Position numbers and translations under genes: made by a program
Source of the DNA: Synaphobranchus kaupii
Lineage: Eukaryota; Chordata; Actinopteri; Anguilliformes; Synaphobranchidae
Length of the DNA: 64,000 nucleotides
Assembly (NCBI GenBank): GCA_029718625.1
Contig: CM056378.1
Location: 59,605,027-59,669,026, forward strand
Reading direction: 5' to 3'
Notes under the pieces: model-generated
Told to the model about the DNA's origin: nothing
Database searches by the model: none
What the model saw: the letters and a program-made list of their open reading frames with translations, nothing else
In this document: one piece after another, positions 2,876-52,021 of the stretch
Position numbering within the stretch: the stretch's first letter is position 1
How the letters are laid out: each line of letters starts with the position of its first letter

Positions 2876-3169
2876 GGGGTGCATCCCAATATTCTTCACT
2901 CCCCACCTTGTTTCCTCCACTCCCCCACTACCACTCCTCTCTTACCCGGAAATATGCAAAACTGCCTGAAAGTTTAGAGTACAAGTATTTGCATGTACAG
3001 TATACAATGTACCTTACATTGGGGTTTGCGTTGAGACATTAATATGTAACCATTAATAGATAATTAAGATGTAATCAGGCACATTAGATTAAAACACAGA
3101 GAACCGTTTCCGGGACACGGAGGAGAGGAGGAACGGAGGGTGCATTTTTCGAGTATTGGGACGCACCCC
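2876..3169. mobile_element. MITE with GGGGTGCRTCCCAATA-type inverted ends
   Basis: The left end (2876-2894) and right end (3151-3169) are inverted complements over about 19 bases with few mismatches. The subterminal parts are also inverted (CTCCCC...CCTCC against GGAGG...GGAG). There is no coding capacity in 294 bp. The same family recurs at 32474-32749 and 32758-32960, which supports a transposed unit. The target duplication is not clear. Confidence 0.7.
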
Positions 3170-4519: not shown

Positions 4520-6050
4520 CACTACTCACAAAAAGTTAGGGATATTTGGCTTTCGGGTGAAATTTATGGAAAATGTAAGTTCACGCTACAGTGATATTAT
4601 ACGTATCATGAAAGTAGGGCATTTAAGTAGAAGCATGCAATGGTGATTTCCTCATCTCAAACAATTTATTGAAACAAAAGCCAACAACAGTGGTGGGTAT
4701 ACCACAACAAAAATGTCAATGTCTCAATAACTTGTCATGTGCCCTTGAGCATCAATTACAGCTTGACAACGACGTCTCATGCTGTTCACAAGTCGACTTA
4801 TTGTCTGCTGAGGCATGGCATCCCACTCTTCTTGAAGGGCGGCCCTCAGGTCATTGAGGTTCTGGGGTACAGAGTTACGAGCCTCTACACGGTGAGTCAG
4901 CTGATCCCATAGGTTTTCTATGGGATTCAGGTCTGGAGAAAGTGCAGGCCACTCCATTTGAGGTACCCCAGTCTCCAGCAGCCTTTCCCTAATGATGCGA
5001 CCTCGATGAGCTGGAGCATTGTCGTCCATGAAGATGAAATTAGGCCTGTGTTGTTCATGCAGGGGCACAATGACTGGATTAATGATGTTATTCAGGTAGT
5101 ATGGGCTTGTCACTGTACCATTCACAAAGTGTAGGGCAGTTCTGTATTGACTAGACACACCTGCCCACACTGTAACACCGCCACCACCAAAGGGTCGTCT
5201 GGTGACAACAGTGGCTGATGCATAGCGCTCTCCTTGACGTCTCCAACATCGTTGGCGGCCATCATTTCTGCTCAACGTGAATCGACTTTCATCAGAGAAC
5301 AGCACTGAGGCCCACTGGTCCCTCGTCCAGCGTAAATGCTCCCTGGCCCATGCAAGACGATGACGCCTGTGCCTGGTGATGTGGTCAGGTACCCTTGCAG
5401 GTCGTCTAGCACGCAGACCACGCTGATGTAAACGGTTTCGAATGGTCTGACGTGACACTTGGGTGCCTCTCACCTCCCTTAAATGTGCCTGGAGTTGAGT
5501 GGCATTCATCATCCGGTTCCGCAGGGCACTGTTCACAATGAAGCGGTCATCAGTGTGGGATGTGGCCAAAGGACGTCCACTTCTATGCCTTTCTGTGACT
5601 CTTCCAGTCTCTCTGTATCTCTGTTGCAACCTGCTGATGACACTCTGTGACACTCTAAGCTCAGTGGCCACTTCCCTCTGAGAACATCCTGTTTGAAGCC
5701 TCGCAATGGCGAGGTACTGTTGATCAATTGTTAGGTGTCGTCTTGGTCTCATGATGTCAAAATGTGAACAGCATGATGAAGAGGACTGTTTAAATACCAA
5801 TTCTAATTGAACCAGGAAATTTATTGGTCGATTCATGGATCAAACACCTGTTGTGAATTTTGCCGTTCAGCTCCTTGTTAGAGAACAGCAAGTTGTGCAA
5901 AAAGTACTGAAACATTGAATAGTTGGACATGTGCATTCAAAAGGTTAGAGAAGGTCAAATTAATTTCACCTGTAAAGGTTATAGTGCATTTTAGGTTCAT
6001 CCTGAAATTTCACCCGAAAGCCGAATATCCCTAACTTTTTGTGAGTAGTG
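4520..6050 (-). mobile_element. Full-length Tc1/mariner element, copy 1
   Basis: The element is 1531 bp and bounded by TA dinucleotides (4518-4519 and 6051-6052), the Tc1 target duplication. Its inverted ends match over about 47 bp starting CACTACTCACAAAAAGTTAG, with one or two differences. It contains a single uninterrupted transposase frame. A second copy with the same ends lies at 16395-17912. Intact ends, target site and frame make it potentially mobile. Confidence 0.95.
4724..5836 (-). CDS. Tc1-family transposase, intact
   Basis: The transposase cuts and joins DNA at the element's inverted ends and inserts at TA. The frame gives 370 residues from the first Met. A second Met at residue 29 (5752) starts the usual MRPRRHLT N-terminus and is the likelier start, giving about 342 residues, normal for Tc1. 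Residues 35-150 hold the paired helix-turn-helix DNA-binding region, with a GRPL segment near 87. The DDE catalytic residues read Asp182 (FSDESRF), Asp272 (FMDDNAPAH) and Glu307 ([11 protein letters not shown]), with 34 residues between the last two (DD34E). There are no stops or frameshifts. It is the sole gene of its element and its terminal sequence would serve as promoter. Confidence 0.93.
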
Positions 6051-16394: not shown

Positions 16395-17912
16395 CACTAC
16401 TCACAAAAAGTTAGGGATATTTGGCTTTCGGGTGAAATTTATGGAAAATGTAAGTTCACGCTACAGTGATATTATACGTATCATGAAAGTAGGGCATTTA
16501 AGTAGAAGCATGCAATGGTGATTTCCTCATCTCAAACAATTTATTGAAACAAAAGCCAACAACAGTGGTGGGTATACCACAACAAAAATGTCAATGTCTC
16601 AATAACGTGTCATGTGCCCTTGAGCATCAATTACAGCTTGACAACGACGTCTCATGCTGTTCACAAGTCGACTTATTGTCTGCTGAGGCATGGCATCCCA
16701 CTCTTCTTGAAGGGCGGCCCTCAGGTCATTGAGGTTCTGGGGTACAGAGTTACGAGCCTCTACACGGTGAGTCAGCTGATCCCATAGGTTTTCTATGGGA
16801 TTCAGGTCTGGAGAAAGTGCAGGCCACTCCATTTGAGGTACCACAGTCTGCAGCAGCCTTTCCCTAATGATGCGACCTCGATGAGCTGGAGCATTGTCGT
16901 CCATGAAGATGAACTTAGGCCTGTGTTGTTCATGCAGGGGCACAATGACTGGATTAATGATGTTATTCAGGTAGTATGGGCTTGTCACTGTACCATTCAC
17001 AAAGTGTAGGGCAGTTCTGTATTGACTAGACACACCTGCCCACACTGTAACACCGCCACCACCAAAGGGTCGTCTGGTGACAACAGTGGCTGATGCATAG
17101 CGCTCTCCTTGACGTCTCCAACATCGTTGGCGGCCATCATTTCTGCTCAACGTGAAGAGAACAGCACTGAGGCCCACTGGTCCCTCGTCCAGCGTAAATG
17201 CTCCCTGGCCCATGCAAGACGATGACGCCTGTGCCTGGTGGTGTGGTCAGGTACCCTTGCAGGTCGTCTAGCACGCAGACCACGCTGATGTAAACGGTTT
17301 CGAATGGTCTGACGTGGCACTTGGGTGCCTCTCACCTCCCTTAAATGTGCCTGGAGTTGAGTGGCATTCATCATCCGGTTCTGCAGGGCACTGTTCACAA
17401 TGAAGCGGTCATCAGTGTGGGATGTGGCCAAAGGACGTCCACTTCTATGCCTTTCTGTGACTCTTCCAGTCTCTCTGTATCTCTGTTGCAACCTGCTGAT
17501 GACACTCTGTGACACTCTAAGCTCAGTGGCCACTTCCCTCTGAGAACATCCTGTTTGAAGCCTCGCAATGGCGAGGTACTGTTGATCAATTGTTAGGTGT
17601 CGTCTTGGTCTCATGATGTCAAAATGTGAACAGCATGATGAAGAGGACTGTTTAAATACCAATTCTAATTGAACCAGGAAATTTATTGGTCGATTCATGG
17701 ATCAAACACCTGTTGTGAATTTTGCCGTTCAGCTCCTTGTTAGAGAACAGCAAGTTGTGCAAAAAGTACTGAAACATTGAATAGTTGGACATGTGCATTC
17801 AAAGGTTTAGAGAAGGTCAAATTAATTTCACCTGTAAAGGTTATAGTGCATTTTAGGTTCATCCTGAAATTTCACCCGAAAGCCGAATATCCCTAACTTT
17901 TTGTGAGTAGTG
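16395..17912 (-). mobile_element. Tc1/mariner element, copy 2, nested in hAT-1
   Basis: It has the same family ends as 4520-6050 and TA on both sides (16393-16394 and 17913-17914). It is 1518 bp, 13 bp shorter than copy 1, because of one internal deletion. Otherwise the copies differ by a handful of substitutions, so both insertions are recent. Confidence 0.95.
16599..17698 (-). pseudogene. Tc1 transposase inactivated by a 13-bp deletion
   Basis: The N-terminal 180 residues (17147-17698) match copy 1 closely and end at VLFSSR. Downstream sequence (16599 to about 17150) carries the rest in another frame with FMDDNAPAH and [11 protein letters not shown] intact. Against copy 1, 13 bases are missing at about 17155. 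This removes the codons for Asp-Glu-Ser-Arg, including the first catalytic Asp, and shifts the frame. The ends remain intact, so the copy could still be moved by a transposase made elsewhere. Confidence 0.93.
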
Positions 17913-27636: not shown

Positions 27637-27736
27637 GCGCTGTCACAACAAATTTCATCACAAATTTCATCCCCCCTATTCCCTTCCGGGGTTACGCTTC
27701 CGGCTACGTACGTTAGCGTCCACTTGGCGATCGCCC

Positions 27737-27853
27737 TGGCTGCGTGGTTGCCAAGCATTCTCTGTTGGTTGCTAACGACGCGATGTGAGATCACCCAGCC
27801 TGCGCGGTTGCCAAGCATTCTCTGCTGGTTGCTAACGACGCGATCTAAGAGGC
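27737..27853 (+). repeat. 58-bp direct duplication in the Ginger subterminal region
   Basis: A unit containing GCGTGGTTGCCAAGCATTCT is repeated once, with a period of about 58 bp. It lies just inside the left inverted end and could be a transposase-binding or promoter region. Confidence 0.8.
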
Positions 27854-27929
27854 GCTCGCGAATTATGCTTCGGGAGCTTCAGGAGACCAGAAAACCTGCG
27901 CTGCTTAAGCCTATTTTTTATAACGTTAT

Positions 27930-28225
27930 ACTTATTCTGATTAGTGGATAGTGTTGTATTGTGTTTTTTTTTCCTTCAGTTTTTTCTTTATAAATCTATT
28001 GTTTTTATTGTTATAATTACCTTGTTAAAGCGCTTGTTAGATAGATTAAATAGATAGATAGATTAAGCCTATTATTTTGATTAACATTACTTATTCTGAT
28101 TAGTGGATAGTGTTGTAATTATTGTGTTTTTTTCAGTTTTTTCTTTATAAATCTATTGTTTTTATTGTTATAATTAGCTTGTTGTTATAGCGCTTGCTAG
28201 ATAGATAGATAGACAGATAGATAAT
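27930..28225 (+). repeat. Two direct repeats of about 125 bp ending in (GATA)n
   Basis: The stretch starting ATTCTGATTAGTGGATAGTG occurs at about 27934 and 28091, and each copy runs into a GATA tetranucleotide tract. Confidence 0.85.
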
Positions 28226-28328
28226 TAGATTAATTAGACTTCACTGATTGATTTCATTCACTGAAATTTTTGACTTGCTGACTGAAAATGGTGGTGTCAC
28301 TAAATGCCATTTTTCTCTATCTTTCCCA

Positions 28329-29530
28329 GGGGACATATGAGAAAGATGTTTGCAAGAAACTCAGGCGGAGTATACGGTTGGCCTCAGAAAAATTCTTTCT
28401 TCGAGGTAAGTTAACTCCTTCACACATCTCAACATTGACACTAGTCTCGCCACAATTTAAGAAAAATGTGTTGTGTGCCTTGCTGTTTAGGCGATTCCCT
28501 TTACTACGGAGACAGGAGGGTCATTCTGACCGAGGAGGAGAAAGTGGCTGTGCTCACTGAGGTTCATGCAGGCCATTTTGGACCAAGGAGGATGCAGGAG
28601 AAGATCGCACCAAGATTTTATTGGCGTGGCATCACGCAGGACACCCTGGATTGGGTAAGGGAACAATTGTGAAATACAGAGAGCATTGTAGGTGTTAGGC
28701 AGGGTTGGACTAAGTAATTATGCTTCCCCTAATCAAAGCCCAACTTTGAGCCGCCCCCCTTCACCGTTTTTTTTACTGTATAACCATTCCAAACACGCAA
28801 AATCTCATTTAAATATGGCTGTTTGCGGCAAATACTTTGGCTGTTCATGTAAAATAACACCCCTTATTTGGGATCTTAGTAAATCGACCCCTGGGTGTTA
28901 TATTATACATTAGCATAGCAAACTTATATCATAAAAAATAAAATATGTAAAATACTTGAGTATTTTTTATACATACGCAAGTGCGGAACATTTGTTCTCA
29001 TTTTTTCTTTGTACTTTTCCTTACTGTCCCTTTATTGCCATGTTTTAAGGTGCGCACGTGTCCTGACTGCCAGTGCTTTGAGAAGTTGAAGACAGAGGCA
29101 CCAGAGCTGAAGCCCATCAAGCCGGTTTCACCATGGCATATGGTTGGTGAGTGAAGTCATTGGTGAATGTCACACACGTGCGCGCACACACACACACACA
29201 GACTTTTCCTGAAGCGAAAACATGACTCCATACTCTAGGTGTGGACCTCTTCGGGCCAATGTTAAAGTCCACCAAGGGGAACAGGTACTGCTTTACCCTG
29301 ACAGACTACTTCACCAAGTGGGTGGAAGCCAGGACCTTCGCGAAGAAGACGGCAGCCAATGTGAAGGAGGTGCGATATACATTTTGCCATATCACTTTGC
29401 CATTATCATCAGTTAGAAAAAATCACCTATGTATTCTAATTTTTGCAACACACAGGCCTTGAGGGACATCTTCACACATGGTTTGCCTGAGATTATCCTC
29501 ACCGACCAGGGCAGTGAGTTCAAGAAGGAG
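28329..29530 (+). CDS. Ginger1-type integrase/transposase, N-terminal exons
   Basis: Five exons are supported by splice signals and phase: 28329-28405, 28491-28654, 29050-29146, 29239-29369 and 29456-29530. They join without a stop. The first reads GTYEKDVCKKLRRSIR, the N-terminal region before LYYGDRRVI. The second and third give an HHCC zinc-binding domain (VHAGHFG, then TCPDCQ), though the two His are only two residues apart, closer than usual. The fourth has GVDLFGP with the first catalytic Asp, and the fifth LTDQGSEF with the second. This enzyme class cuts and inserts DNA. The third catalytic Glu (HPQ-x-G-x-x-E region) is not found: the next readable exon begins with unrelated residues, and the intron between contains a gypsy LTR fragment. 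The start exon is not identified. It continues into the protease exons at 29859-31571. Confidence 0.85.
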
Positions 29531-29535
29531 GTAAC

Positions 29536-29800
29536 CTGTAACATTCCACTCCCATCCTATTGTTTCTCCATGTTTTCCCTCTCCCCCTGTTTCGTGTTTG
29601 TCTCTCCATTGTCCGTGTTTTCCCCGTTGCTGCAGGTTGGGCATGTTTTCCCGTTTGTATCACTGTTTCACTGCTCCTTTCTCAGCCTATCCCATTCCCC
29701 CGTTTTGCATGCATTCCACACTCTCCGCTCTGTTCAATCACTCTCGCATACATTCGCACGCGGTTCCTAATTGATTCCAATTAATGTTTCATTTTCTTGA
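29536..29800 (+). mobile_element. Gypsy LTR fragment inside the Ginger gene
   Basis: It starts TGTAACATTCCACTCCC and matches, base for base over most of its length, the 5' part of the minus-strand LTR ending at 52021. Shared stretches include CATGCATTCCACACTCT and CATACATTCGCACGCGG. It lies between the fifth integrase exon and the next exon, where the third catalytic residue should be encoded. Only the first 265 bp of the LTR are present. Confidence 0.8.
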
Positions 29801-29858
29801 AATAAATGGGTCGTCTATGTGCACATATGCTTTCTAACTATTTGTATGATTCACACAG

Positions 29859-31571
29859 GATCAGGTTCAGAGTCTGGCAGACCATACCTACGTCGGCCCC
29901 ACTCAAACCTGGGAAAAGGAGTTGCACCCTCACCAAGTACAACTGGTAAATTGGTTTCAATCAGATTTTAATTATATGTTAAGATATTTGAGTCATCAAG
30001 TGATAAACAAGTGATTTATGTATTGATTTTTCAAGTGGTCCTAGACAGACAACAATGGAGTCATACAAAATGTTATTATCTTAAGCTTGAGTATGTCCTG
30101 GATCCTGAGAGTCCTGCACTGGAGCTGATTGTCAAAGAAGGAGACGTGTGTTTGACGCGAGAGGAATTCTGGTCCCTTGGGTTGTCCAGAGACATGGACT
30201 CCACTGTGAGTATAGTAACATGTTTGTTTAGCACGATTTCTCATTCTGAATGTGTGGAGGTGCTCGACCAAGAATATTTTGCCTAAAGCACATCAGAAAA
30301 CTATTCAGAAATTTAAGTATCTGTATGTTTTGTGTAATTATTTGCAGATTGGGAACACGTGCTTGAGGGTTGTTCGGGAAGCTGCTCAGAGACATGTAAG
30401 ATTTGTTTCTCAACGTAGCATAGCAGAGACAGTTTGCATTTTTGAATCATTTTGAGTTCAAATAGTTGATTTTGCAAACCTTACTTTTTATAATGCCTTT
30501 GGATTCAACACCCTTACAGAGCAAAGATGTCTTCATTGCTGACATGTACGCCGTGCCGACATGGACTGTCAGGCCTTCCAGTGAGTATCCTTAATGTTCT
30601 ATATTAATAATTGCAATAATCTGAAATCTCATCGTATAATATTCATGAATCATGACTACAGAAGGATCCACACCTAAAGGATGCTCTAGTCTTCCCAGCT
30701 TGGACAAACTGCAATGGACCAGAGCACTACCTTCTATGTGTAAGTAATGAGCAGAAAAATACATTTGAATCCACTTGAGTTATCTACAAAATCTTGGTTA
30801 ATTATCATATTGTTTATGTTTCTTTCTGCATTACCCATTATAGGTGTTGAAGCCAGCCAAGAGAGAGATTCACTTGCTGGATTCTCAGTTTGCCCTTTGG
30901 CCTTCAGGTTTTGGAGATGAGGAGTACAGAGGCATCTTTAGGTCCCTAAATAATAAATTATTCGGGCCACGTTCCTGTTCTGGCCACGTTCCTATAACGG
31001 CCACATTTCTGTTCTGGCCATGTTCCTATAACGGCCACATTTCTGTTCTGGCCACGTTCCGATGACCTACAGTATATCTTTTGAGATTTCCTATTGATCT
31101 CTTTCATATAATTTGGCTACGTTCCCATTGCCTGTTCAATTGATTAGTTACTGATCGCGTTCAGAAGTTTTAGTGCTTAGTAGTCACGGTGCGATGTATT
31201 TTTGACAGGATTGATTTATTTTTTATTGCAGGAACATTGCAGAGCGTATTGTTCCCGGAAGCTGGAGTGAGATGACCGGAAGGGACATGCAGGTAATGAT
31301 ATGTCCCCCCCCCGTAATAGCAGTGTCTTGTAGTAACATCTAAGAATATAAGAGTTTTTATCACGCAAATATCTGTTATCAGGATATCCCACGACAGACA
31401 TCTGGGAATGACTGTGGCATTTTCGTGCTTATGGTAAGTTGAATTTTTAGGTAAATACTGTACATGTATCCAGACAAAATTGAAAGAATTAATCTGAAAA
31501 ATGCAAGTTATTTTTTTTTCTTTCAGTACACCCTCTGCATATGTACCGATGCTCCATTCCACTTCACTATG
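29859..31571 (+). CDS. Ulp1/SENP-type cysteine protease, C-terminal exons of the Ginger gene
   Basis: Exons by splice signals: 29859-29945, about 30036-30205, 30348-30395, 30520-30580, 30662-30739, 30844-30941, 31232-31292, 31383-31433 and 31527-31571. C48 family proteases remove SUMO-like modifiers. The catalytic residues are visible: His in GPEHYLLC, Asp in IHLLDS, Gln in PRQTSG and Cys in GNDCGIF. Upstream are DVFIADMYAVPTW and FPAWTN, typical of the fold's N-terminal part. Most junctions keep phase, but 30580 to 30662 is out of phase by one base relative to the conserved frame, and the start of the second exon is unclear. This indicates decay or a mis-set boundary. The final exon after TDAPFHFTM is not found. 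Ginger1 proteins are known to carry OTU or Ulp1 domains after the integrase, and this fits the Ulp1 type. Confidence 0.85.
30964..31062 (+). repeat. Minisatellite in a Ginger intron
   Basis: A unit of about 36 bp with GGCCAC(A/G)TT and TTCTGTTCTGGCCA(C/T)GTTCC is repeated about 2.5 times. Confidence 0.85.
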
Positions 31572-32473
31572 GTCAGTATTTCAACAACTGCAAAAATGAC
31601 ATACAGTACATACGTATACTTCATATCGCAGAATGTAGCTAAAATATCATCCAACGTAAATGTATGGGCTAATTAAATAATTAAGGGCAGAAGTTAATCT
31701 GAAATCCAGAAACAGATACGGCCCTCCAGGACTGGTGTTGCCCACCCCTGGGCTAAACAATTCTTTCAGGGATAACATAATTAGGCAGAAAATGTTTTAT
31801 GAGTTATTGCACTAAATAATAGCCATACCTATCTAGGCCCATCAGAATTGCAAACACTTGACAGGAGGAAGATTCTTGGGGCCACATGACCGCTGGGTTA
31901 AACAAAAACAAAAAAAAACCCTCTCTTGGCCTGTACCTTGACGTGGTGAGAGGGCTTGTCACTAAAACAGGCTGACATTTCTGACTTAATGATTACTCAA
32001 ATGCCACTTCTTTTTTCTATCTCTGTCCATTCATAAGGAGCACTATGTGATGACCATATTTCATATATCATTACACAGAATTTTCAAATAAACATTATTA
32101 AAACTGAGCATGATGTGTTTTTCTTCATTGTTGTGTTCTTTATTAGGGGAAAGATGAGATGATCAATGATCACACTACCTTTACATCTGATATCACTAGA
32201 CTACATATTGGCTATGCTGTTTGTATTGTGGACATATAATTAATCATAATTATGGCTGGGTGTGATTTCACCTGTTTTTTGTGGTTTCTGTGATTTTTTC
32301 ATTTTTGGATGCTGGTAATTGTCAACATTAACATAGCCTACAATCAACTGTTGCAATCAGATGCCTGACGGCCCCTGTCAACATTGCTGCTGTGAGCACT
32401 CCATCTCATGTCAGATCAAGACCGAGCAAAATAATTAAGTACAGGGGGGTATACTATGAAGCAGAATTAATTA

Positions 32474-32749
32474 GGGTGTGTCAAAATGCTCGGAAAATGC
32501 ACCCTCCTCTGCTCCGTGCCCCTGAAATGGATCTTTGTGTTTTCATCTAATGTTGATGATTACATCTTAATTACGTATTAATGGTAACATATTAATTAAT
32601 GTCTCGACAAAACCGCAATGTCAGGTACATTACTGTAGCCTACATGCAAATAATTGCACTTGAAACGTATAGGCTACTTTGCATACTTCTTTGTAGGAGA
32701 CGGAGTGGAGGAAAGGAGGTGAGAAGTGAAGAATATTGGGACGCACCCC
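32474..32749. mobile_element. MITE of the 2876-3169 family, copy 2
   Basis: The left end is GGGTGTGTCAAAATGCTC and the right end GAATATTGGGACGCACCCC, inverted with mismatches. Subterminal CTCCTCTGCTCCGTG-like and GGAGTGGAGGAAAGG parts agree with the copy at 2876-3169, in the other orientation. Confidence 0.65.
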
Positions 32750-32757
32750 AGCTAACT

Positions 32758-32960
32758 AGGGCTACGTCCCAATATTATTCACTCCCCACCTCCTTTCCTC
32801 CACTCCCCCACTAACACTCCTCTCCTACCCGGAAGTATGCAAAAATGCCTAAACGTTTACAATGTACAGTTTACAAACAGTATACAATGTACTTGACATT
32901 GCGGTTTGCGTCGAGACATTAATCAATTTGTAACTATTTGTAAGTGATATGTAGCCCTAT
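32758..32960. mobile_element. MITE of the 2876-3169 family, truncated copy 3
   Basis: It starts GGGCTACGTCCCAATATTATTC and follows the 2876-3169 copy through the ATGTACTTGACATTGCGGTT-like part before fading. It lies nine bases from copy 2, head to head. Confidence 0.65.
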
Positions 32961-33528
32961 GTTGTGCACCCCTGCATTGGCAGTCAAGCTAGCACTAACA
33001 AAAAAGATAACATTTAAAACTTTTTTCTTTTTTTTTTACCAAGAAAAGCCATGTGTCTATATGCTGTTTTCCTGAACAGGTCTCTCCTTTGATACGATGC
33101 ACTGTAGGTACGTTAATTAGCTAGCGTCGAGTTGAAAGCGAAAGACATAGCTAGCTAACGTGGACTAGCAATATATATATATATATGAGAGAGAGCCTAG
33201 CTAACCATCTATGTTGCTAGCTAGCCAACGTTATATCAGAGATTGTATAGCTAGTAAATTCGCTAGCTACACATAGTGCTACACAGGCTGAGTGTAGGCT
33301 AGGCTACCTATATTTATTCACAACAGTCTGTCAATCTATCTTTTCTTTCTTTCTTGCTAGCTAGCTAACTAACTATCACTGTAGACTAAGTTAGATAGGC
33401 CATATTTATTCACAACAATCAGTCAATCTACGCTTCTTATTAGCTAGCTAGCTAACGATTTATCGATTGTAGCCGGAAGCGTAACCCCGGAAGGAAATAG
33501 GGGGGGATGAAATTTGTTGTGACAGCGC

Positions 33529-38302: not shown

Positions 38303-39826
38303 TGTTACGAACCCGGAACGAGACGAACCCAAGTGCAACGACCAGGAGGCAGATTCACAAAAAGGGGGGTTTATTAAATTAAGTGTTGGGGTAGTCCCAA
38401 CACTGTACAGAAAAGGCAATACACAATATTACGCTGGAACAGCAAGGAAGCCCGGGACGGGCTGCTCCAAGCCGGAGCTGGGCTGGCAGGTCTGGAACGT
38501 TCGTTCCAAGCCGGAACTGGACTGGACTGGAACTGGACCGGGAGGTCCACTTTGGGAATCAGGATCTGGAACGGAATGTTCCAAACCGGAACTGGACTGG
38601 ACTGGAACTGGACCGGGAGGTCCACACTGGAATCAGGATCTGGAACGGGTGTGTTCCAAACCGGAACTGGACTGGACTGGAACTGGACCGGGAGGTCCAC
38701 ACTGGAATCAGGGTCTGGAACGGATTTGTTCCAAACCGGAACTGGACAGGACTGGAACTGGACCGGGAGGTCACACTGGAATCAGGGTCTGGAACGGATT
38801 TGTTCCAAACCGGAACTGGACTGGACTGGAACTGGACCGGGAGGTCCACACGGGAAGCAGGGTCTGGAACGGATTGTTCCAAACCGGAACTGGACTGGAC
38901 AGGTAGGTGCACGGCTCACACCTGGACTGGACTGGACTAGCTGGGGAGCGGCTCACTACGGCAGGACAGGAACTGGACCGGAATGACTGCACCGGTACAG
39001 AACAAAACAAAGCAGGTGGGGTTAGTGCAAGGGAAGGCACGGAAATGACCGGGAGGTTCTCACGGAGGTGCAGGGCTTGAGAGGTAGGTGGTTGGTGAAG
39101 CACGGCAGGGCTGGGTAGTGTGGCGTAGCTGCGGTAGGTCCGGAAGGAGCTGACTGGTCTCCAGAGCTCCCGGAACCGGAACCGAAGAACTAGTTGGCTT
39201 CTTCGGCCGGACAGGAACAACTGGAGGGTAGCCAGGTAACACGCCAACCCGGAGCCTACACGAGCTGGAGGTGGAGGTACCGCAACACACACAACGAAAA
39301 CGGGGGGAAACGAACACTGCCACGGGAGAATGGGAGCTGGGTTAGATGGAGGAGAGGGGAAACAGGTTAGCTGCATGAACAACAAGAAATGACTTGGAGG
39401 ATAACTACCAGACTGTAGTTAGGAGCGGAACTCTAGCTGCAAGGGGATAATATCCCACAACCAAGCGAGTAGTTCTTTGAACGCGACCAGGCAAACAACG
39501 AGCATTAACACCGCGTGACGATAGTTAACGAACTGGCGCCGACTGGCAGCCAGCCGAAGGAATAAATAGTGAGGTTAATGACAGAACTAAACAAGGAACA
39601 GGTGTGGAAAATAAACGGGAGTGATTAAGAAACACCAGGTGAGGAAATGCATGCAACGAGGGGGGACGGAGTGAAAAGGCGGAAGTAAGACAACCAGACG
39701 AACAAGACAGAGAAGGAAACGCCCAGACCACAGCAGCGGGGAAAACACGGACAAAAGGATCCAACATGACACGGAGGGAAAACAGGAATATACAGAAAAC
39801 GAACAGGAAGGGAGCGGAACATTACA
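38303..39826 (-). repeat. 3' LTR of the gypsy element, 1524 bp
   Basis: Lies downstream of pol on the minus strand, ends with the TG/CA termini, and is preceded by a polypurine tract. It contains five copies of a 74-75-bp minisatellite (38511-38890). An AT-rich ATTTATT near 39560 could be the core promoter. Confidence 0.95.
38511..38890 (+). repeat. LTR minisatellite, five units of 74-75 bp
   Basis: Unit anchors GGACCGGGAGGTC lie at 38535, 38610, 38685, 38760 and 38834. Each unit is itself built from GGAACTGGACT-type subrepeats. The frames read through it are by-products of the repeat, not genes. Confidence 0.93.
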
Positions 39827-39840
39827 CTACCCCCCCCTCA
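39827..39840 (-). promoter_or_regulatory. Polypurine tract
   Basis: On the minus strand TGAGGGGGGGGTAG lies directly before the 3' LTR, the position where plus-strand DNA synthesis is primed in LTR retrotransposons. Confidence 0.85.
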
Positions 39841-42771
39841 ACGTACGCCCCCTGGCGTACCTGGCGGCCTGGTCTTGAGAGGGAAGCGACTGTGGAAATC
39901 CTGGATCAATGATTGATCCAGGATGAGGCTCCTGTGGAGCCACGACCGCTCCTCAGGACCATACCCCTCCCAGTCCACGAGGTATTGAAAACCCCGACCC
40001 TTACGGCGGATGTCGATAATGCGGTCCACCGTGTAGGCCGGGGCGTTGTCGATGACCCGAACGGGTGGAGGAGGGAGGGTAGGGGCACTGAGGGGGCTGG
40101 AGGCGACAGGCTTGATCTGTGACACATGAAAAACGGGGTAGACCTTGAGGGAGGAAGGGAGGGAGAGTTTAACGGAAACCGGGTTAATGAGACAAACAAC
40201 AGGGAAGGGACCAATAAACCGGGGCCGAAGTTTCTTAGAGGAGGAGGGAAGGGAAATGTTGGATGTGGAAAGCCAGACCTGCTGCCCGGCTCTGTATTTA
40301 GGGGCTGCGGTCCTGTGCAGGTCCGCCAGACGTTGAGAACGGGAATTAGAACGCAGGAGTGCGGTGCGTGCAAGTCTCCACATGCGTTTGCACTTGAGGA
40401 TGTGGGACTTAACGGAGGGGACTGCTACCTCGGCCTCCTGGGCCGACAGGAGAGGGGGTTGGTAACCTAATGAGCACTCGAACGGGGACAGCCCTGTAGA
40501 CGCACTCTTAAGGGAGTTATGGGCGTACTCTACCCAGGGAAGAAAACGGCTCCAGGAGGCGGGATTGCGTGCAGTGACGCACCGCAGGGCGGCCCCCAGG
40601 TCCTGGTTCGCCCTCTCTGCCTGGCCGTTAGACTGGGGATGAAAACCAGACGACAGACTGGCCGAGGCCCCCAGGGCTACACAGAACGCCTTCCACACCT
40701 GGGAGGAGAATTGGGGCCCACGGTCCGACACAATGTCGGATGGGATCCCGTGCAGCCTGACCACCTGTGACACCAGGAGCTCCGCCGTTTCGAGGGCGGA
40801 CGGGAGCTTAGGGAGGGGAACAAAGTGAACCGCCTTGGAGAACCGATCCACAATTGTCAGAATGACGGAGTTGCCCTCTGACAATGGCAGACCGGTGACG
40901 AAGTCAACGCCAATGTGGCTCCAAGGACGGCCCGGGACAGGGAGGGGAAGGAGAAGACCAGAGGGAGGCTGGTGGGAAGCCTTGCTCCTGGCGCACACCG
41001 CGCAGGCCAGGACAAAAGCACGGGTATCCTCCTTGAGCGTGGGCCACCAAAAACTCCTCCTGACGAGGGTGGTCGTTCTGGCAACCCCTGGGTGACACGC
41101 CAGACAGGAGGCGTGAACCCACTCAAGGACCTGGGAGCGGACGGAGTTGGGAACAAACAGGGAGGAGTTAGGGTTACTACGGGGGTCAGGGTGGGAAGTC
41201 TGGGCGGACCTCACAACCTCCTCAATCGTCCAGGAGACCGCAGCCACCATACAGGAAGCCGGTAGAATAGGCTCGGGGTCAGCAGGACTGGAGGGAAGGG
41301 AAAAAACACGGGATAATGCATCCGCTTTGATATTGCGGGAACCGGGGCGGAAGGACACAGAAAAATTAAATCGGGCAAAGAATAATGACCACCTAGCCTG
41401 TCTGGCATTAAGCCTCTTAGCAGACTTTAGATAAATAAGGTTTTGGTGGTCAGTTAAAACAATAAAGGGGCTACCTGCCCCCTCCAGCCAGTGGCGCCAC
41501 TCCTCAAGAGCCAGCTTGATGGCCAGAAGCTCCCGATCCCCGACATCATAGTTCCGCTCGGCGGAGGACAGCCTCCGGGAGAAGAAAGCACAGGGATGGA
41601 GCTTGTTGTCCAAGGCGGCTCGTTGGGACAGAATGGCCCCCACGCCGGTGTCGGAGGCATCCACCTCAATCGTAAATTGGCGAGTGGGGTCAGGGTGACA
41701 AAGAATAGGGGCCGAGGAAAACCGAGCCTTAAGGCGTTCAAACGCGAGCTGGGCCTCGGAGTTCCAACAAAAAGAAAAAGCAGTGGAGGTGAGTTTGGTT
41801 AGGGGAGCAGCAATGACACTGTAATTACGGATGAACCTACGATAAAAATTGGCAAAACCAAGAAACTGTTGCAGGTGCTTACGAGAGGTGGGTTGGGGCC
41901 ATTCTGTCACCGCCTTGATCTTGGCGGGATCCGCCCGGATGCTGCCCTCCTCGATGATGAAGCCGAGGAACGGGACTGAGGAGACGTGGAAGGAGCACTT
42001 CTCTGCCTTAACGAAGAGCTGGTTTTCAAGCAGGCGCTGGAGAACCTCCCGGACATGGAGAATGTGCTCCTGGGGGGACTTAGAAAAAATCAAAATATCA
42101 TCGATATACACGAAAACAGTCTTCCCCAACAGGTCTCGCAGGACGTCATTCACCATGCCCTGGAAGACTGCCGGGGCGTTAGTAAGGCCGAAGGGGACCA
42201 CCAGGTACTCGTAGTGGCCCAACGGGGTATTGAAGGCAGTCTTCCATTCATCCCCCTCCCGTATACGCACCAAGTGGTACGCATTACGGAGGTCGAGCTT
42301 GGTGAAAATGACGGCCTGCGAGAGGGGTTCAAAGGCAGTGTTAATAAGGGGAAGAGGATATTTGTTGCGGATGGTAATTTGATTGAGCCCCCGGTAGTCG
42401 ATGCAGGGCCGTAGTGAGCCGTCCTTTTTCCCCACAAAAAAGAACCCAGCACCAACAGGAGAGGAGGAAGGGCGGATGATGCCCGAGGCGAGGGACTCAT
42501 GAATATACTCCTCCATGGAGAGTTTCTCCGGACCCGACAGACTGTAGAGACGACCAGACGGAAGCTTGGCTCCCGCCAGCAGGTCAATGCAACAATCGTA
42601 GGGTCGGTGAGGAGGTAGGGACAGAGCGCGTGATTTTGAAAAGGTAAGGCAGAGGTCGTGATATTGCTTGGGAACGTTGGACAGATCGGGTTCGGGTAGG
42701 TTGGTGCTGGAATTCTTGGATCCCGGAGGGGGGGAGAGCGGAACGAAGACAGCTAGCCAGACAGTGACCAC
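39838..42771 (-). CDS. Gypsy pol: RT, RNase H, integrase, chromodomain
   Basis: A 977-residue open frame. The RT has LDLRNAYH (Asp160), VPFGLTNAP and YIDD (222-225). RNase H has Asp371, Glu414, Asp441 and Asp484. The integrase has the HHCC zinc domain (His553, His560, Cys590, Cys593) and DDE residues Asp623, Asp683 and Glu719 with 35 residues between the last two. A GPF motif (about 850) follows, and a chromodomain sits at the C-terminus ([20 protein letters not shown], about 905-960), which may steer insertion to modified chromatin. It copies the element RNA and inserts the DNA. The frame overlaps the protease frame by about 190 bp, and the true junction is a frameshift near a run of seven C at 42728-42734. 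The first Met is therefore not the natural start. Confidence 0.95.
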
Positions 42772-43210
42772 TCCACGCCAGGATACGACCGGCTTGCCAG
42801 TCGATGTGAGGGTTGTGAAGGCGGAGCCAGGTCTGACCCAAAACTATGGAGGATTGTTTAGAGTTGATGAGCAGAAGTTGAATACTCTCCCGATGATTGC
42901 CGGATAAAACGAGCTGTACTGGAACGGTGGAGTGGGTGACTAACCCCAGACTCCTACCGTCTAAGGCAAAAGCAGTAATGGGAGAGGGTAGCAGTTCCGT
43001 GGGGATGCCGGCCCTCCTGGCGAAGGTGATGTCCATGAAGTTAGCGTCGGCACCAGAGTCGATAAGGGCCGACGAGACTTCGGACTTGTCCCTCCAAAGG
43101 AGAGTGGCCTTGAAGACAAGGCGATTCTGAGCTGCATGGCAAGGTATGATTGGGCTCGTCAGTACGCCCAGTTTAACTGGCGAGCCTACTCTTTTGGGCG
43201 AATGGGGCAT
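42584..43210 (-). CDS. Gypsy aspartic protease region
   Basis: The frame enters by -1 shift from gag and reads [10 protein letters not shown]. It then reads [15 protein letters not shown], the catalytic DSG of a retroviral-type aspartic protease, and [18 protein letters not shown], the flap/C-terminal part. It processes the Gag-Pol product. After about 42740 the frame runs out of phase with pol, and the last 50 residues are translated from the wrong frame. It would be the N-terminal part of one pol protein in an intact element. Confidence 0.9.
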
Positions 43211-44148
43211 GAGGCGATCTGGTGGCCTGGTTTGCCACAGTAAAAACAGGATCTAGATCGCAGGCGACGTTGGCGCTCCTCGGCGTTGACCGCAACTCTG
43301 CCCAGTTGCATGGGCTCTTCCTCAGAGACCCCAGACGCCGCTCTGGATCCAGAGGCAGAAGGGTGTGAGCGTATGTGTTGCTGATGCTGATGACCGGAGT
43401 TCCCCCCTCGCTCACGGGCCCGGATACGGAGACGGTTGTCAATAGCGATGGCCAGGCTAATAAGGCAATTGAGTGACGTGGATTCTTCGCGGGTGGCAAG
43501 TTGGTCCTTTAACTCTTCGCTCAGCGCCTGGCGGAAAGTCCCCTGAAGGGCGGTGTCATTCCATCCGGACTCCACTGCGAGGGTACGGAATTGGATTGCC
43601 ATTTCAGCAACGCTACGGCTTCCTTGACGGACCTGAAGTAGGCGTTGAGTTGCGTCTCGCCCACAGGTAGGGTGATCGAATACACGCCGCATCTCAGCGG
43701 TGAAGGCGGCGAAGTTGTTGCAGAGCGCGACTTGGCTGTCCCAAATGGATGTAGCCCACTCCAGGGCACCTCCTCCCAAACTGCTCATTATGAAGGCGAT
43801 CTTACATGGGTCGGAGGCGAAGGAGGAGGGCTGCATCCGGAATACTATGTCGCATTTCATCAGGAATTCGCGACACTTTCCCAATCCCCCGCGGTATAAC
43901 TCTGGATGTTGAACGCGGGGCTCTCGGAGAGAAGTGGGAACAGAAGGATCCACCGGCGGATCCGGCGCGGGCGGTGTAGGGCCCATAGGAATACGCGGAA
44001 GCGGCTGGTGAAGAGCTAGCTGCGCCACTTGCTCCGTGATGCCCCTCAGCACCTCCAACACGTCATCCAAACGTCGGCCCTGTTGGTCGCTGACCGCAGT
44101 TTGGCAGGAGAAGGCGTGACGAATTTGCTCCAGGTCGGCTGGGTCCAT
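43186..44148 (-). CDS. Gypsy Gag
   Basis: A 320-residue open frame starting MDPADLEQIRHAF, only 20 nt after the 5' LTR. It has a proline-rich stretch (about 60-90), then the capsid region (YRGGLGKCREFLMKCDIVF, ALEWATSIWD), and ends with a zinc knuckle [14 protein letters not shown] (Cys301, Cys304, His309, Cys314). Gag packages the RNA and forms the particle. The frame stops at TAG 43186-43188, directly after a slippery heptamer that allows readthrough into protease. Confidence 0.94.
   Translation of the reverse strand: MDPADLEQIRHAFSCQTAVSDQQGRRLDDVLEVLRGITEQVAQLALHQPLPRIPMGPTPPAPDPPVDPSVPTSLREPRVQHPELYRGGLGKCREFLMKCDIVFRMQPSSFASDPCKIAFIMSSLGGGALEWATSIWDSQVALCNNFAAFTAEMRRVFDHPTCGRDATQRLLQVRQGSRSVAEMAIQFRTLAVESGWNDTALQGTFRQALSEELKDQLATREESTSLNCLISLAIAIDNRLRIRARERGGNSGHQHQQHIRSHPSASGSRAASGVSEEEPMQLGRVAVNAEERQRRLRSRSCFYCGKPGHQIASCPIRPKE
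43192..43198 (-). promoter_or_regulatory. -1 ribosomal frameshift site C CCA AAA
   Basis: In the Gag frame the bases read C CCA AAA just before GAG TAG. This fits the X XXY YYZ rule for -1 frameshifting. Slipping back one base gives PKRVGSPVK, exactly the protease frame. A downstream pseudoknot was not modelled. Confidence 0.85.
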
Positions 44149-44168
44149 GATTTTTGGCCAGTTCGTTC
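44149..44168 (-). promoter_or_regulatory. Primer-binding/leader region, 20 nt
   Basis: The whole leader between 5' LTR and Gag ATG is GAACGAACTGGCCAAAAATC. It does not begin TGG as a tRNA-primed site normally does. The second element shares GAACGAACYGGCCA at the same place (50532-50545), so this is the conserved part. Sushi/Tf1-type elements prime from their own RNA 5' end, which may apply here. Confidence 0.6.
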
Positions 44169-45766
44169 TGTTACGAACCCGGAACGAGACGAACCCAAGT
44201 GCAACGACCAGGAGGCAGATTCACAAAAAGGGGGGTTTATTAAATTAAGTGTTGGGGTAGTCCCAACACTGTACAGAAAAGGCAATACACAATATTACGC
44301 TGGAACAGCAAGGAAGCCCGGGACGGGCTGCTCCAAGCCGGAGCTGGGCTGGCAGGTCTGGAACGTTCGTTCCAAGCCGGAACTGGACTGGACTGGAACT
44401 GGACCGGGAGGTCCACACTGGAATCAGGATCTGGAACGGGTGTGTTCCAAACCGGAACTGGACTGGACTGGAACTGGACCGGGAGGTCCACACTGGAATC
44501 AGGGTCTGGAACGGATTTGTTCCAAACCGGAACTGGACAGGACTGGAACTGGACCGGGAGGTCACACTGGAATCAGGATCTGGAACGGGTGTGTTCCAAA
44601 CCGGAACTGGACTGGACTGGAACTGGACCGGGAGGTCCACACTGGAATCAGGGTCTGGAACGGATTTGTTCCAAACCGGAACTGGACAGGACTGGAACTG
44701 GACCGGGAGGTCACACTGGAATCAGGGTCTGGAACGGATTTGTTCCAAACCGGAACTGGACTGGACTGGAACTGGACCGGGAGGTCCACACGGGAAGCAG
44801 GGTCTGGAACGGATTGTTCCAAACCGGAACTGGACTGGACAGGTAGGTGCACGGCTCACACCTGGACTGGACTGGACTAGCTGGGGAGCGGCTCACTACG
44901 GCAGGACAGGAACTGGACCGGAATGACTGCACCGGTACAGAACAAAACAAAGCAGGTGGGGTTAGTGCAAGGGAAGGCACGGAAATGACCGGGAGGTTCT
45001 CACGGAGGTGCAGGGCTTGAGAGGTAGGTGGTTGGTGAAGCACGGCAGGGCTGGGTAGTGTGGCGTAGCTGCGGTAGGTCCGGAAGGAGCTGACTGGTCT
45101 CCAGAGCTCCCGGAACCGGAACCGAAGAACTAGTTGGCTTCTTCGGCCGGACAGGAACAACTGGAGGGTAGCCAGGTAACACGCCAACCCGGAGCTTACA
45201 CGAGCTGGAGGTGGAGGTACCGCAACACACACAACGAAAACGGGGGGAAACGAACACTGCCACGGGAGAATGGGAGCTGGGTTAGATGGAGGAGAGGGGA
45301 AACAGGTTAGCTGCATGAACAACAAGAAATGACTTGGAGGATAACTACCAGACTGTAGTTAGGAGCGGAACTCTAGCTGCAAGGGGATAATATCCCACAA
45401 CCAAGCGAGTAGTTCTTTGAACGCGACCAGGCAAACAACGAGCATTAACACCGCGTGACGATAGTTAACGAACTGGCGCCGACTGGCAGCCAGCCGAAGG
45501 AATAAATAGTGAGGTTAATGACAGAACTAAACAAGGAACAGGTGTGGAAAATAAACGGGAGTGATTAAGAAACACCAGGTGAGGAAATGCATGCAACGAG
45601 GGGGGACGGAGTGAAAAGGCGGAAGTAAGACAACCAGACGAACAAGACAGAGAAGGAAACGCCCAGACCACAGCAGCGGGGAAAACACGGACAAAAGGAT
45701 CCAACATGACACGGAGGGAAAACAGGAATATACAGAAAACGAACAGGAAGGGAGCGGAACATTACA
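44169..45766 (-). repeat. 5' LTR of the gypsy element, 1598 bp
   Basis: 74 bp longer than the 3' LTR because its minisatellite (44371-44830) has six units (anchors 44401, 44476, 44551, 44625, 44700 and 44774). Elsewhere it is nearly identical. Confidence 0.95.
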
Positions 45767-50545: not shown

Positions 50546-52021
50546 TGTTATGACCCAGATAGCGGACTGAACCCAAATGCACGACTCAGACAAGGGATTG
50601 CCAATTCTCAGATATTTATTGCTCAACAGGGCAGTCCTGTAGCAAGGGGAGAAAGGCAAGACAGGTTAACAATGCACAAACTAGATTCTTGGACCGGGTG
50701 GGCTTGTTCCAAGCCGGAACTGGACTTGACAACCGGACTGGACTCGTTCCAGGCTGGAACGGGACTGGACAGACGGGCGGTACTTGTTCCAAGCCGGAAC
50801 TGGACTTGGCAACCGGGCAACGCTCGTTCCAGACCGGAACTGGACTTGACAGGGCTGGACTGGACTGGACTGGACTCACGACAGACAGATGGACAGACAA
50901 TTGTGGGAGCGCTAAGCATCCAATAATTTAAACTTCAACAATGGCATTCTCCTGAAGAGTAGGGAGTGACATTTAATATGAACAGTCCGGGTTTGAGGCT
51001 GCGGGGAATGAGAGAGTTAGGAGAGAGTAGGGGAGGCAATGGAAACAGACAACCAGTTAGAATGAGCAGGGGATGAGCGGGAGCGGGAGAGCAGGATCGT
51101 GGATCGGGATCCGGATCGGACCCAGGCGTAGCAGCAGGGCAGCAGCAGTGAGCGCAACCGTAACCGTGGCAGTAGATGCGGCAACGGCCGGACGCAGGAA
51201 CTACTGCCGTGTGGAGGAGCAGAAACCCAAACGGCTTGCACACACGTCAGGAGGGAGGCTGTAGACCGCGGCACAGGCAGGGACGACCAACAACAACTGC
51301 AGTTAGGCGAATTGAAGCAGACAGAGTTAGTTTGACAAGACGGGAACAATGAACAGCAGACGTGCTGTTCCAGGCTGGAGCAGACTCAGGATTTAAATAG
51401 GGCGGTAAGGCGAATTAACACCTGTACAGCCAAGACTCAGGAATATTACTAGACTGGTTACTAGGACTAGGACTGGTCTGGACAACAATTAACATTACAT
51501 TACATTACAGGCATTTAGCAGACGCTCTTATCCAGAGCGACTTACACAACCTTATAGCATTTTTTTTTAACATATTATCCATTTATACAGCTGGATATAT
51601 GCTGAAGCGATTCAGGTTAAGTACCTTGCTCAAGGGTACAACGGCAGTGTCCTACCTGGGAATCGAACCTGCAACCTTTCGGTTACAAGGCCAGTTCCTT
51701 AACCATTATACTACACTGCCGCCCATTAACGAACCGGCACAGGACAGAGAACACCGGGTGACTAAATACAACATTTAATTGGTATCAATTATGTGCCGCG
51801 TGCGAATGTATGCAGGAGTGATTAGCAGATAGAAGAGTGTGGAATGCATGCGAAAGCAGGGAAGTGGGATAGGCTGTAAGGAGTGGCGTGAAACAGGGTG
51901 ATACAATTAGGAAGCTACGCCCAACCTGCAGCACGGGGAAAGACGGACTAAGGAGAGACGAACATGACACAGGGGGAGAGGGAAAACACGGGAAACAGTA
52001 GGACGGGAATGCGTCATCACA
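50546..52021 (-). repeat. 5' LTR of the second gypsy family, with SINE inside
   Basis: On the minus strand it runs from TGTGATGACGCATTCCC to GGGTCATAACA, with TG/CA ends. It contains GGAACTGGACT-type repeats (50700-50880) like the first family, and the SINE at 51494-51724. Its first 265 bp match the LTR fragment at 29536-29800. Confidence 0.8.
51494..51724 (-). mobile_element. tRNA-derived teleost SINE, full length
   Basis: Flanked by ATTAAC on both sides (51488-51493 and 51725-51730). Read on the minus strand it has a tRNA-like head with A box and the B box GGTTCGATTCC. Its loop CTTGTAA implies a Thr(TGT)-type ancestor. Then follow a conserved body (TACCCTTGAGCAAGGTACTT), the core AAGAGCGTCTGCTAAATGCC, and a TAATG repeat tail. 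Confidence 0.85.

Follow-up and report, generated by a model that had tools for sequence, protein, structure and literature searches.

Ends and coding region of the element

The window analysed here, a 64-kb stretch of the genome of the eel Synaphobranchus kaupii, harbours an intron-rich integrase-protease element between two inverted ends (Table 1). The arms measure 56 bp, with 55 of the 56 paired bases identical, and the left arm is extended to 67 bp by an additional 11-bp tandem unit. The termini, TGTCA...TGACA, fit the pattern TGTNR, and GCGC adjoins the element on both borders. Fifteen exons, separated by 14 introns, are predicted on the plus strand and join into an open frame of 437 codons with integrase and Ulp1 motifs. 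An earlier interpretation, made from the letters alone (the sequence-only reading), had described inverted ends of about 60 bp starting with TG, GCGC at both borders and more than ten plus-strand exons bearing these motifs. All of this was recovered. It had further taken the locus for a Ginger1-Ulp1 element that carries an integrase-Ulp1 fusion gene and uses GCGC as a variant target, and here our results differ in several respects.

Pfam analysis of the spliced frame detected Integrase_H2C2 (PF17921, 2.5e-14), an rve match (6.9e-8) restricted to profile positions 10–89 of 102, and, on a frame that uses a weak splice donor, Peptidase_C48 (PF02902, 1.9e-6). In the YPYY region upstream of the zinc finger, inspected by eye, Y, F and YY fit while P does not. 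Sequence relatives in the PDB include Ty3 integrase, foamy virus integrase and SENP1, and a protein search returned proteins of S. kaupii itself as the closest relatives.

Copies in the genome, target site and empty sites

The sequence-only reading implied that the same ends should occur elsewhere, which they do: a 120-base left-end query against the species' own 1.5-Gb assembly gave at least 43 matches from the 40 candidates, out of 64, that were scored. Twenty regions around such matches were fetched (L-numbers denote regions of this assembly, P-numbers public proteins and C-numbers contigs, C3 being the contig of the window), and 16 two-ended elements, the window copy included, could be delimited. 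An exact 4-bp target site duplication (TSD) flanks 13 of these 16, reading GCGC in eight, GCTC in three, GAGC in one and AGGC in one. The exceptions are L015 (one mismatch), L018 (a mini-element of 348 bp) and L027 (right end damaged). Outside this count stand L010b, an inner second left end within L010, and L023, for which no right end came to light; for L021, L024, L025 and L028 the left end only was seen. Since the flanks read G-GNNC-C in 12 of the 13 copies with an exact TSD, the target is GGCGCC-like. The GCGC of the window is thus a real duplication, but it represents one variant among the GGNNCC-like targets of the family.

Several insertions, that of the window among them, lie in one interspersed host repeat with more than one GGCGCC, in both orientations. 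Searching with the left flank of the window element gave at least 67 matches (40 of 325 candidates scored), and the ten best-scoring loci were examined. In eight of the nine non-window loci (L031–L038, not L030), the joined flanks align straight across the site. The alignments of L038, L033 and L032 display a single GGCGCC at the unfilled site; for the other five loci, the extent of the match was the criterion. That is, unfilled copies of the invaded host repeat represent the empty site. L010 and L019 have common flanking sequence, and these two insertions may not be independent.

Thirteen copies diverge by 0.25% on average (78 pairs, range 0.05–0.47%), and L026 stands apart from them at about 0.96%. 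Given such near identity, the amplification is recent. Two further arrangements were seen in the fetched regions. L011 (C6:39742960-39749900) holds two copies, both inserted into the same host repeat, and their left ends face each other at a distance of about 46 bp; one has an exact GCGC duplication, and the far end of the other lies outside the region read. The mini-element in L018 (439-786) has both ends, is without an exact duplication and is possibly a derivative resembling a miniature inverted-repeat transposable element (MITE).

Shared ends, 4-bp duplications and empty sites identify the element as a transposon. These observations also bear on two other explanations. KRBA2, like GIN1 and GIN2, is a host gene with an integrase of Ginger1 descent. 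A domesticated host gene of this kind would account for the many introns and the long frame, and there is precedent for such an origin (PMC2836005). However, at least 14 dispersed and nearly identical copies, most of them with TSDs, together with the empty sites make this hardly conceivable. Dispersed, nearly identical copies with duplications likewise argue against a host gene that distant fish retain at an orthologous position, a condition under which the sequence-only reading would have fallen. Likewise, the integrase might belong to a Gypsy retrotransposon fragment between chance inverted repeats, given its likeness to the Ty3 and foamy virus enzymes and a Gypsy-like frame at 39841-42843 of the window. 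Recurring terminal inverted repeats (TIRs) with TSDs refute this, Pfam found no retrotransposon domain besides the integrase in the spliced protein, and a tree places the protein with Ulp1- and OTU-bearing rows, although its deepest split is weak; we give this explanation practically no credence.

The tree comprised 37 rows covering the zinc finger and DDE core, hand-picked from the protein-search matches and including no named Hydra Ginger1 sequence. The window protein grouped with its S. kaupii relatives (100/99) and then within a larger group of 17 rows, of which 16 come from fish (98/92). Outside this group fell first the Ulp1-PHD and KRAB rows, next the OTU rows. The split from five Gypsy-side rows, labelled as such by us, was weak (75/44), and three of the five are long branches. 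In this tree the window protein falls among Ginger1-like proteins, with the separation from the Gypsy-side rows as the uncertain part.

Deletions and frame damage

The S. kaupii proteins P0004 and P0005 contain an exon with the third catalytic acid (HPQTNG...DERTNQ) and the region that follows it. Neither this exon nor the GPY/F-like exons has a match anywhere in the window element. Five of the 20 fetched regions possess the third-acid exon (L017, L021, L024, L025 and L028), 13 are without it and have the same structure as the window copy, and two are short remnants (L018 and L023). At a first junction, near 29537, about 1.7 kb is gone (measured in L021), the third-acid and GPY/F-like exons included, and the gap is filled by about 250 bp of an unrelated repeat (29547-29794 is 81% identical to window positions 52011-51764). 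At a second junction the RRWWC exon and the PWP3A-B_C exons of the longer relatives are gone. Both junctions are common to all 14 copies compared (window plus 13), with L022 differing by one base beside each. All 14 copies also have a shortened exon 9, without 20 bp that are present in the longer relative L039.

When the normal donor of exon 9 (30581) is used, the catalytic exons of Ulp1 fall out of frame; the 437-codon frame requires a weak donor at 30568, 13 bases upstream. P0001, the public gene model of a related copy on the contig of the window, follows the frameshift. Because the third acid and the GPY/F half are gone and splicing at the normal donor throws Ulp1 out of frame, the window copy is, as judged from its sequence, without a working integrase-Ulp1 fusion, and this part of the sequence-only reading fails. 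Relatives such as P0013 do combine integrase and protease in a single annotated S. kaupii protein (PF02902, 8.7e-5), which for these relatives speaks against exons that belong to separate transcripts.

These results also speak to the idea of an autonomous Ginger1 element that makes a working fusion protein. Motifs and exon order would suit it, and P0013 and a further relative, P0099, join the integrase and Ulp1 domains. However, the third-acid and GPY/F-like exons are unmatched in the element, the rve match stops at position 89 of 102 and the normal donor leaves the protease in the wrong frame. The missing third acid refutes autonomy unless an exon outside the element were to supply it, and we regard this explanation as very unlikely.

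We therefore interpret the window element as a copy of a Ginger1-like DNA transposon of S. kaupii that is young, has lost internal parts, is non-autonomous and has most likely been moved in trans, and assign this reading a probability of about 0.87. Several points weigh against it. Among the copies read, no long copy combined both ends with integrase and Ulp1; the 4 kb that follow L039 revealed no right end for the C23 copy, and the integrase exons of this copy are interrupted. Supply in trans is hence what we infer. In addition, the weak donor could still yield a 437-aa protein, with a frame that 10 of the 13 other copies keep open (the exceptions are L010 with a frameshift, L014 with an in-frame gap and L026 with a stop and gaps), and the Ulp1 exons show reduced divergence, as detailed below.

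Selection on the exons

Open frames across the copies are expected, since the copies are so young, and with 11 of the 14 introns in phase 0, loss of exons mostly preserves the frame without selection. The ratio of nonsynonymous to synonymous substitution rates (dN/dS) against longer copies ranged from 0.18 to 0.64 and was below 1 in seven of seven comparisons (pieces of five copies), each based on 2–10 amino-acid changes and giving no distinction between deletion form and long copies. Exons of the Ulp1 part were about half as divergent as their introns (5/416 versus 20/842 differences for L039; 4/251 versus 19/550 for L040), whereas exons of the integrase part differed like introns or more (16/585 in exons versus 10/564 in introns for L025). 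This pattern is a hint that Ulp1 was once under constraint in the family, but on these sequence comparisons such constraint is not assignable to the deletion form. We base no conclusion on this test of purifying selection, in which the changes were few.

The same data bear on the proposal that the shortened gene makes a useful protein, with zinc finger, half an integrase and an active Ulp1 core, which might regulate the transposase or help by removing SUMO. The frame is open in most copies, the protease motifs are present, dN/dS is low and the Ulp1 exons are conserved relative to their introns. Yet such a protein would depend on the weak donor, the public model P0001 takes the frameshifted route, the phase-0 introns keep the frame in any case, and the few amino-acid changes cannot be assigned to the deletion form, while the integrase-part exons diverge like introns. 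We consider this proposal unlikely, and favour the inert, internally deleted copy.

Longer relatives and their tail

On contigs C23 (L021, L039) and C1 (L025, L040), the third-acid exon is followed by the Ulp1 exons, the RRWWC exon and the PWP3A-B_C exons. PWP3A-B_C is the domain at the C-terminus of the repair factors PWWP3A/B. L039 and L041 run on into sequence that matches the inside of L017, a region with both TIRs and a GCTC duplication and without the Ulp1 and PWP3A segment. This collinearity with a TIR-bounded copy places the PWP3A exons within the element.

Among public proteins, Pfam found Ulp1 with PWP3A-B_C in P0017 (1.2e-35 for PWP3A-B_C) and in P0154 from Triplophysa dalaica (2e-48), and rve with PWP3A-B_C in P0068 of a second S. 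kaupii family (1.9e-34). In P0020 from Anguilla, the PWP3A-B_C match was partial and below threshold. A search with the tail of P0068 gave three proteins, P0068 itself included. P0021, P0022 and P0039 share the linker and Ulp1-like region but continue with CxC7 where the eel family has PWP3A-B_C; the Ulp1 match is below the Pfam cut-off in P0021 and P0022, none is listed for P0039, and the F-box matches in P0021 and P0039 are below the cut-off. Fish F-box/CxC7 proteins have been linked to Zisupton/KDZ (PMC12062965).

A second S. kaupii family, represented by P0013 and P0015, has a related integrase and a rather different-looking Ulp1-like domain. In P0029 (S. kaupii) and P0154, the linker and Ulp1-like region described above follows another kind of N-terminal part, which is not an integrase. 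That part had no Pfam match up to E = 5, and its likeness to KDZ/Zisupton stays a guess. An AlphaFold2 model of P0154 (19 rows) reached a mean predicted local distance difference test score (pLDDT) of 40.8 and was discarded. P0074 (S. kaupii) combines a Ginger-like integrase model with a Myb/SANT-like domain (PF13837, 1.5e-6), which could be an artefact of the gene model.

In the literature searched, judged partly by title, we found no report of a combination of integrase, Ulp1 and PWWP3A/B C-terminal domain. Tentatively, and as an idea that may well prove wrong, we suggest that fish Ginger1-like transposons have, behind the integrase, an exchangeable tail made of a Ulp1-type SUMO protease and a module for chromatin or repair, namely PWP3A-B_C in eels and in a loach protein and F-box/CxC7 in cichlids. 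The tail may handle SUMO and repair factors at the break and is perhaps shared with another type of transposase. The different N-terminal parts of P0154 and P0029 are what such sharing may look like. If true, the vertebrate PWWP3A/B tail and the transposon domain would have one origin, with transfer in either direction.

Table 1. Positions of the element's features in the window
Feature	Positions	Strand	Basis
Left target site duplication, GCGC	27637..27640		Exact 4-bp duplication; empty sites
Left terminal inverted repeat, TGTCA..., with 11-bp tandem unit	27641..27707	+	Recurs genome-wide
Two tandem subterminal repeats of ~60 bp	27729..27850	+	62 bp at 88.7%
Predicted exons 1-2: N-terminal motif region and first half of H2C2 zinc finger	28288..28654	+	Prediction, Pfam
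Predicted exon 3: CPDC half of zinc finger	29050..29146	+	Prediction, Pfam
Predicted exon 4: first catalytic Asp (VDLFGP)	29239..29369	+	Prediction, Pfam
Predicted exon 5: second catalytic Asp (TDQGSEF); the remaining integrase exons end here	29456..29530	+	Prediction
Deletion junction 1	29538..29789		Same in 14/14 copies
Predicted exons 6-8: linker and N-terminal part of Ulp1-like region	29859..30395	+	Prediction
Predicted exon 9: 20 bp shorter than in L039	30520..30580	+	Comparison with L039
Predicted exons 10-14: Ulp1 motifs EHYLLC, HLLDS, QTSGNDCGIF; in frame only via weak donor 30568	30662..31571	+	Prediction, Pfam
Deletion junction 2, near 31623	31620..31626		Comparison with longer relatives
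Predicted last exon (GKDEMIND...), uncertain	32147..32239	+	Prediction
Foldback repeat, MITE-like, nested in 3' part	32474..32938		Related sequence at 2876-3168
Right terminal inverted repeat	33469..33524	-	Pairing with left arm
Right target site duplication, GCGC	33525..33528		Exact 4-bp duplication

Other features of the window

Elsewhere in the window, the Gypsy-type frame mentioned above (1001 codons, minus strand) is flanked by near-identical stretches of 215 codons at 38774-39418 and 44714-45358, probably long terminal repeats, and 38774-45358 is perhaps a young retrotransposon. The frames at 4727-5839 and 16602-17701, the second split over two frames, have a helix-turn-helix-like start and resemble a transposase of the Tc1/mariner type. 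UnaL2 is a family of long interspersed nuclear elements (LINEs) from eel. Its 3' element, the sole Rfam match in the window (RF00436, 65.4 bits), lies at 51505-51558, near the sequence that matches the filler of junction 1 (52011-51764).

Discussion

How might the deletion form have spread? In the longer relative, the encoded H2C2-DDE integrase-like transposase is joined to a Ulp1-like protease and then to PWP3A-B_C. The deletion form, with at least 14 copies, would keep ends that this transposase can bind, and the enzyme would most likely be supplied in trans by longer copies, whereas the protein encoded by the deletion form itself would be inert. By a presumed cut-and-paste route, the long-copy transposase would bind the TIRs, excise the element and join the ends to a GGCGCC-like site, where a stagger of 4 bp would leave GNNC duplicated; the site and the duplication are observed. 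Ulp1 and PWP3A-B_C may serve to remove SUMO at the break or to bring repair factors to it. This guess agrees with the founding paper on Ginger1, which supposed that repair following transposition may be where Ulp1 and OTU act (PMC2836005). The PWWP3A/B-type domain of the longer copies points to DNA repair or chromatin and would fit this guess.

Ginger1 was described from four invertebrate species (PMC2836005), its relics were later found in vertebrates (PMC9004415), and Ginger is listed among teleost transposons (PMC4746887, PMC6404401). With its many copies and empty sites, so young a burst in a fish lends itself to studying the role of the protease in transposition. Its preference for GGCGCC departs from the Hydra sites, of which CCGG and CCGT/ACGG make up 99% (PMC2836005).

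Among known systems, the Ginger2/TDD elements resemble the eel element in their TIRs, TGTNR ends, gypsy-like integrase and TSDs of 4–5 bp, but Ginger2 targets AT-rich RTATAY, for which we find a GGCGCC-like sequence instead, and the parts of the source used here mention no protease domain for Ginger2 (PMC2836005). GIN1 and GIN2 have an integrase of Ginger1 descent and several introns, yet they are host genes without TIRs (PMC2836005), whereas the eel family consists of many young, TIR-bounded copies with TSDs.

The closest parallel is Ginger1 with Ulp1, known from Ginger1-4 to -10 and -12 of Hydra (Bao et al. 2010, Table 1, PMC2836005), so that Ulp1 in a Ginger1 element was already on record. 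Both share TGTNR ends, TIRs within 40–270 bp, 4-bp TSDs and an H2C2 and DDE integrase with a C-terminal Ulp1 domain, the last present in the window copy on the weak-donor frame and out of frame at the normal donor. They differ in the number of introns (0–4 versus 14 predicted in the eel element), perhaps in the YPYY region, where by eye the P is lacking, and in the TSD, which is CCGG or CCGT in Ginger1 (PMC2836005) and GNNC at GGCGCC-like sites in the eel, with CCGG or CCGT/ACGG in 0 of 13 copies. The DDE core of the window copy and of the 13 other deletion copies is without its third acid. GPY/F, deleted in the window copy, is degenerate in the longer eel relatives, where P0004 and P0011, by eye, read ...SYRV/...KYRV without GP, and PWP3A-B_C is an addition of these longer relatives that the window copy has lost (compare PMC2836005). 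The assignment to a Ginger1-like, integrase-Ulp1 lineage thus stands, but because the target is not CCGG/CCGT we file the element as a Ginger1-like variant and not as Ginger1 proper, one that works like a deletion derivative of Ginger1.

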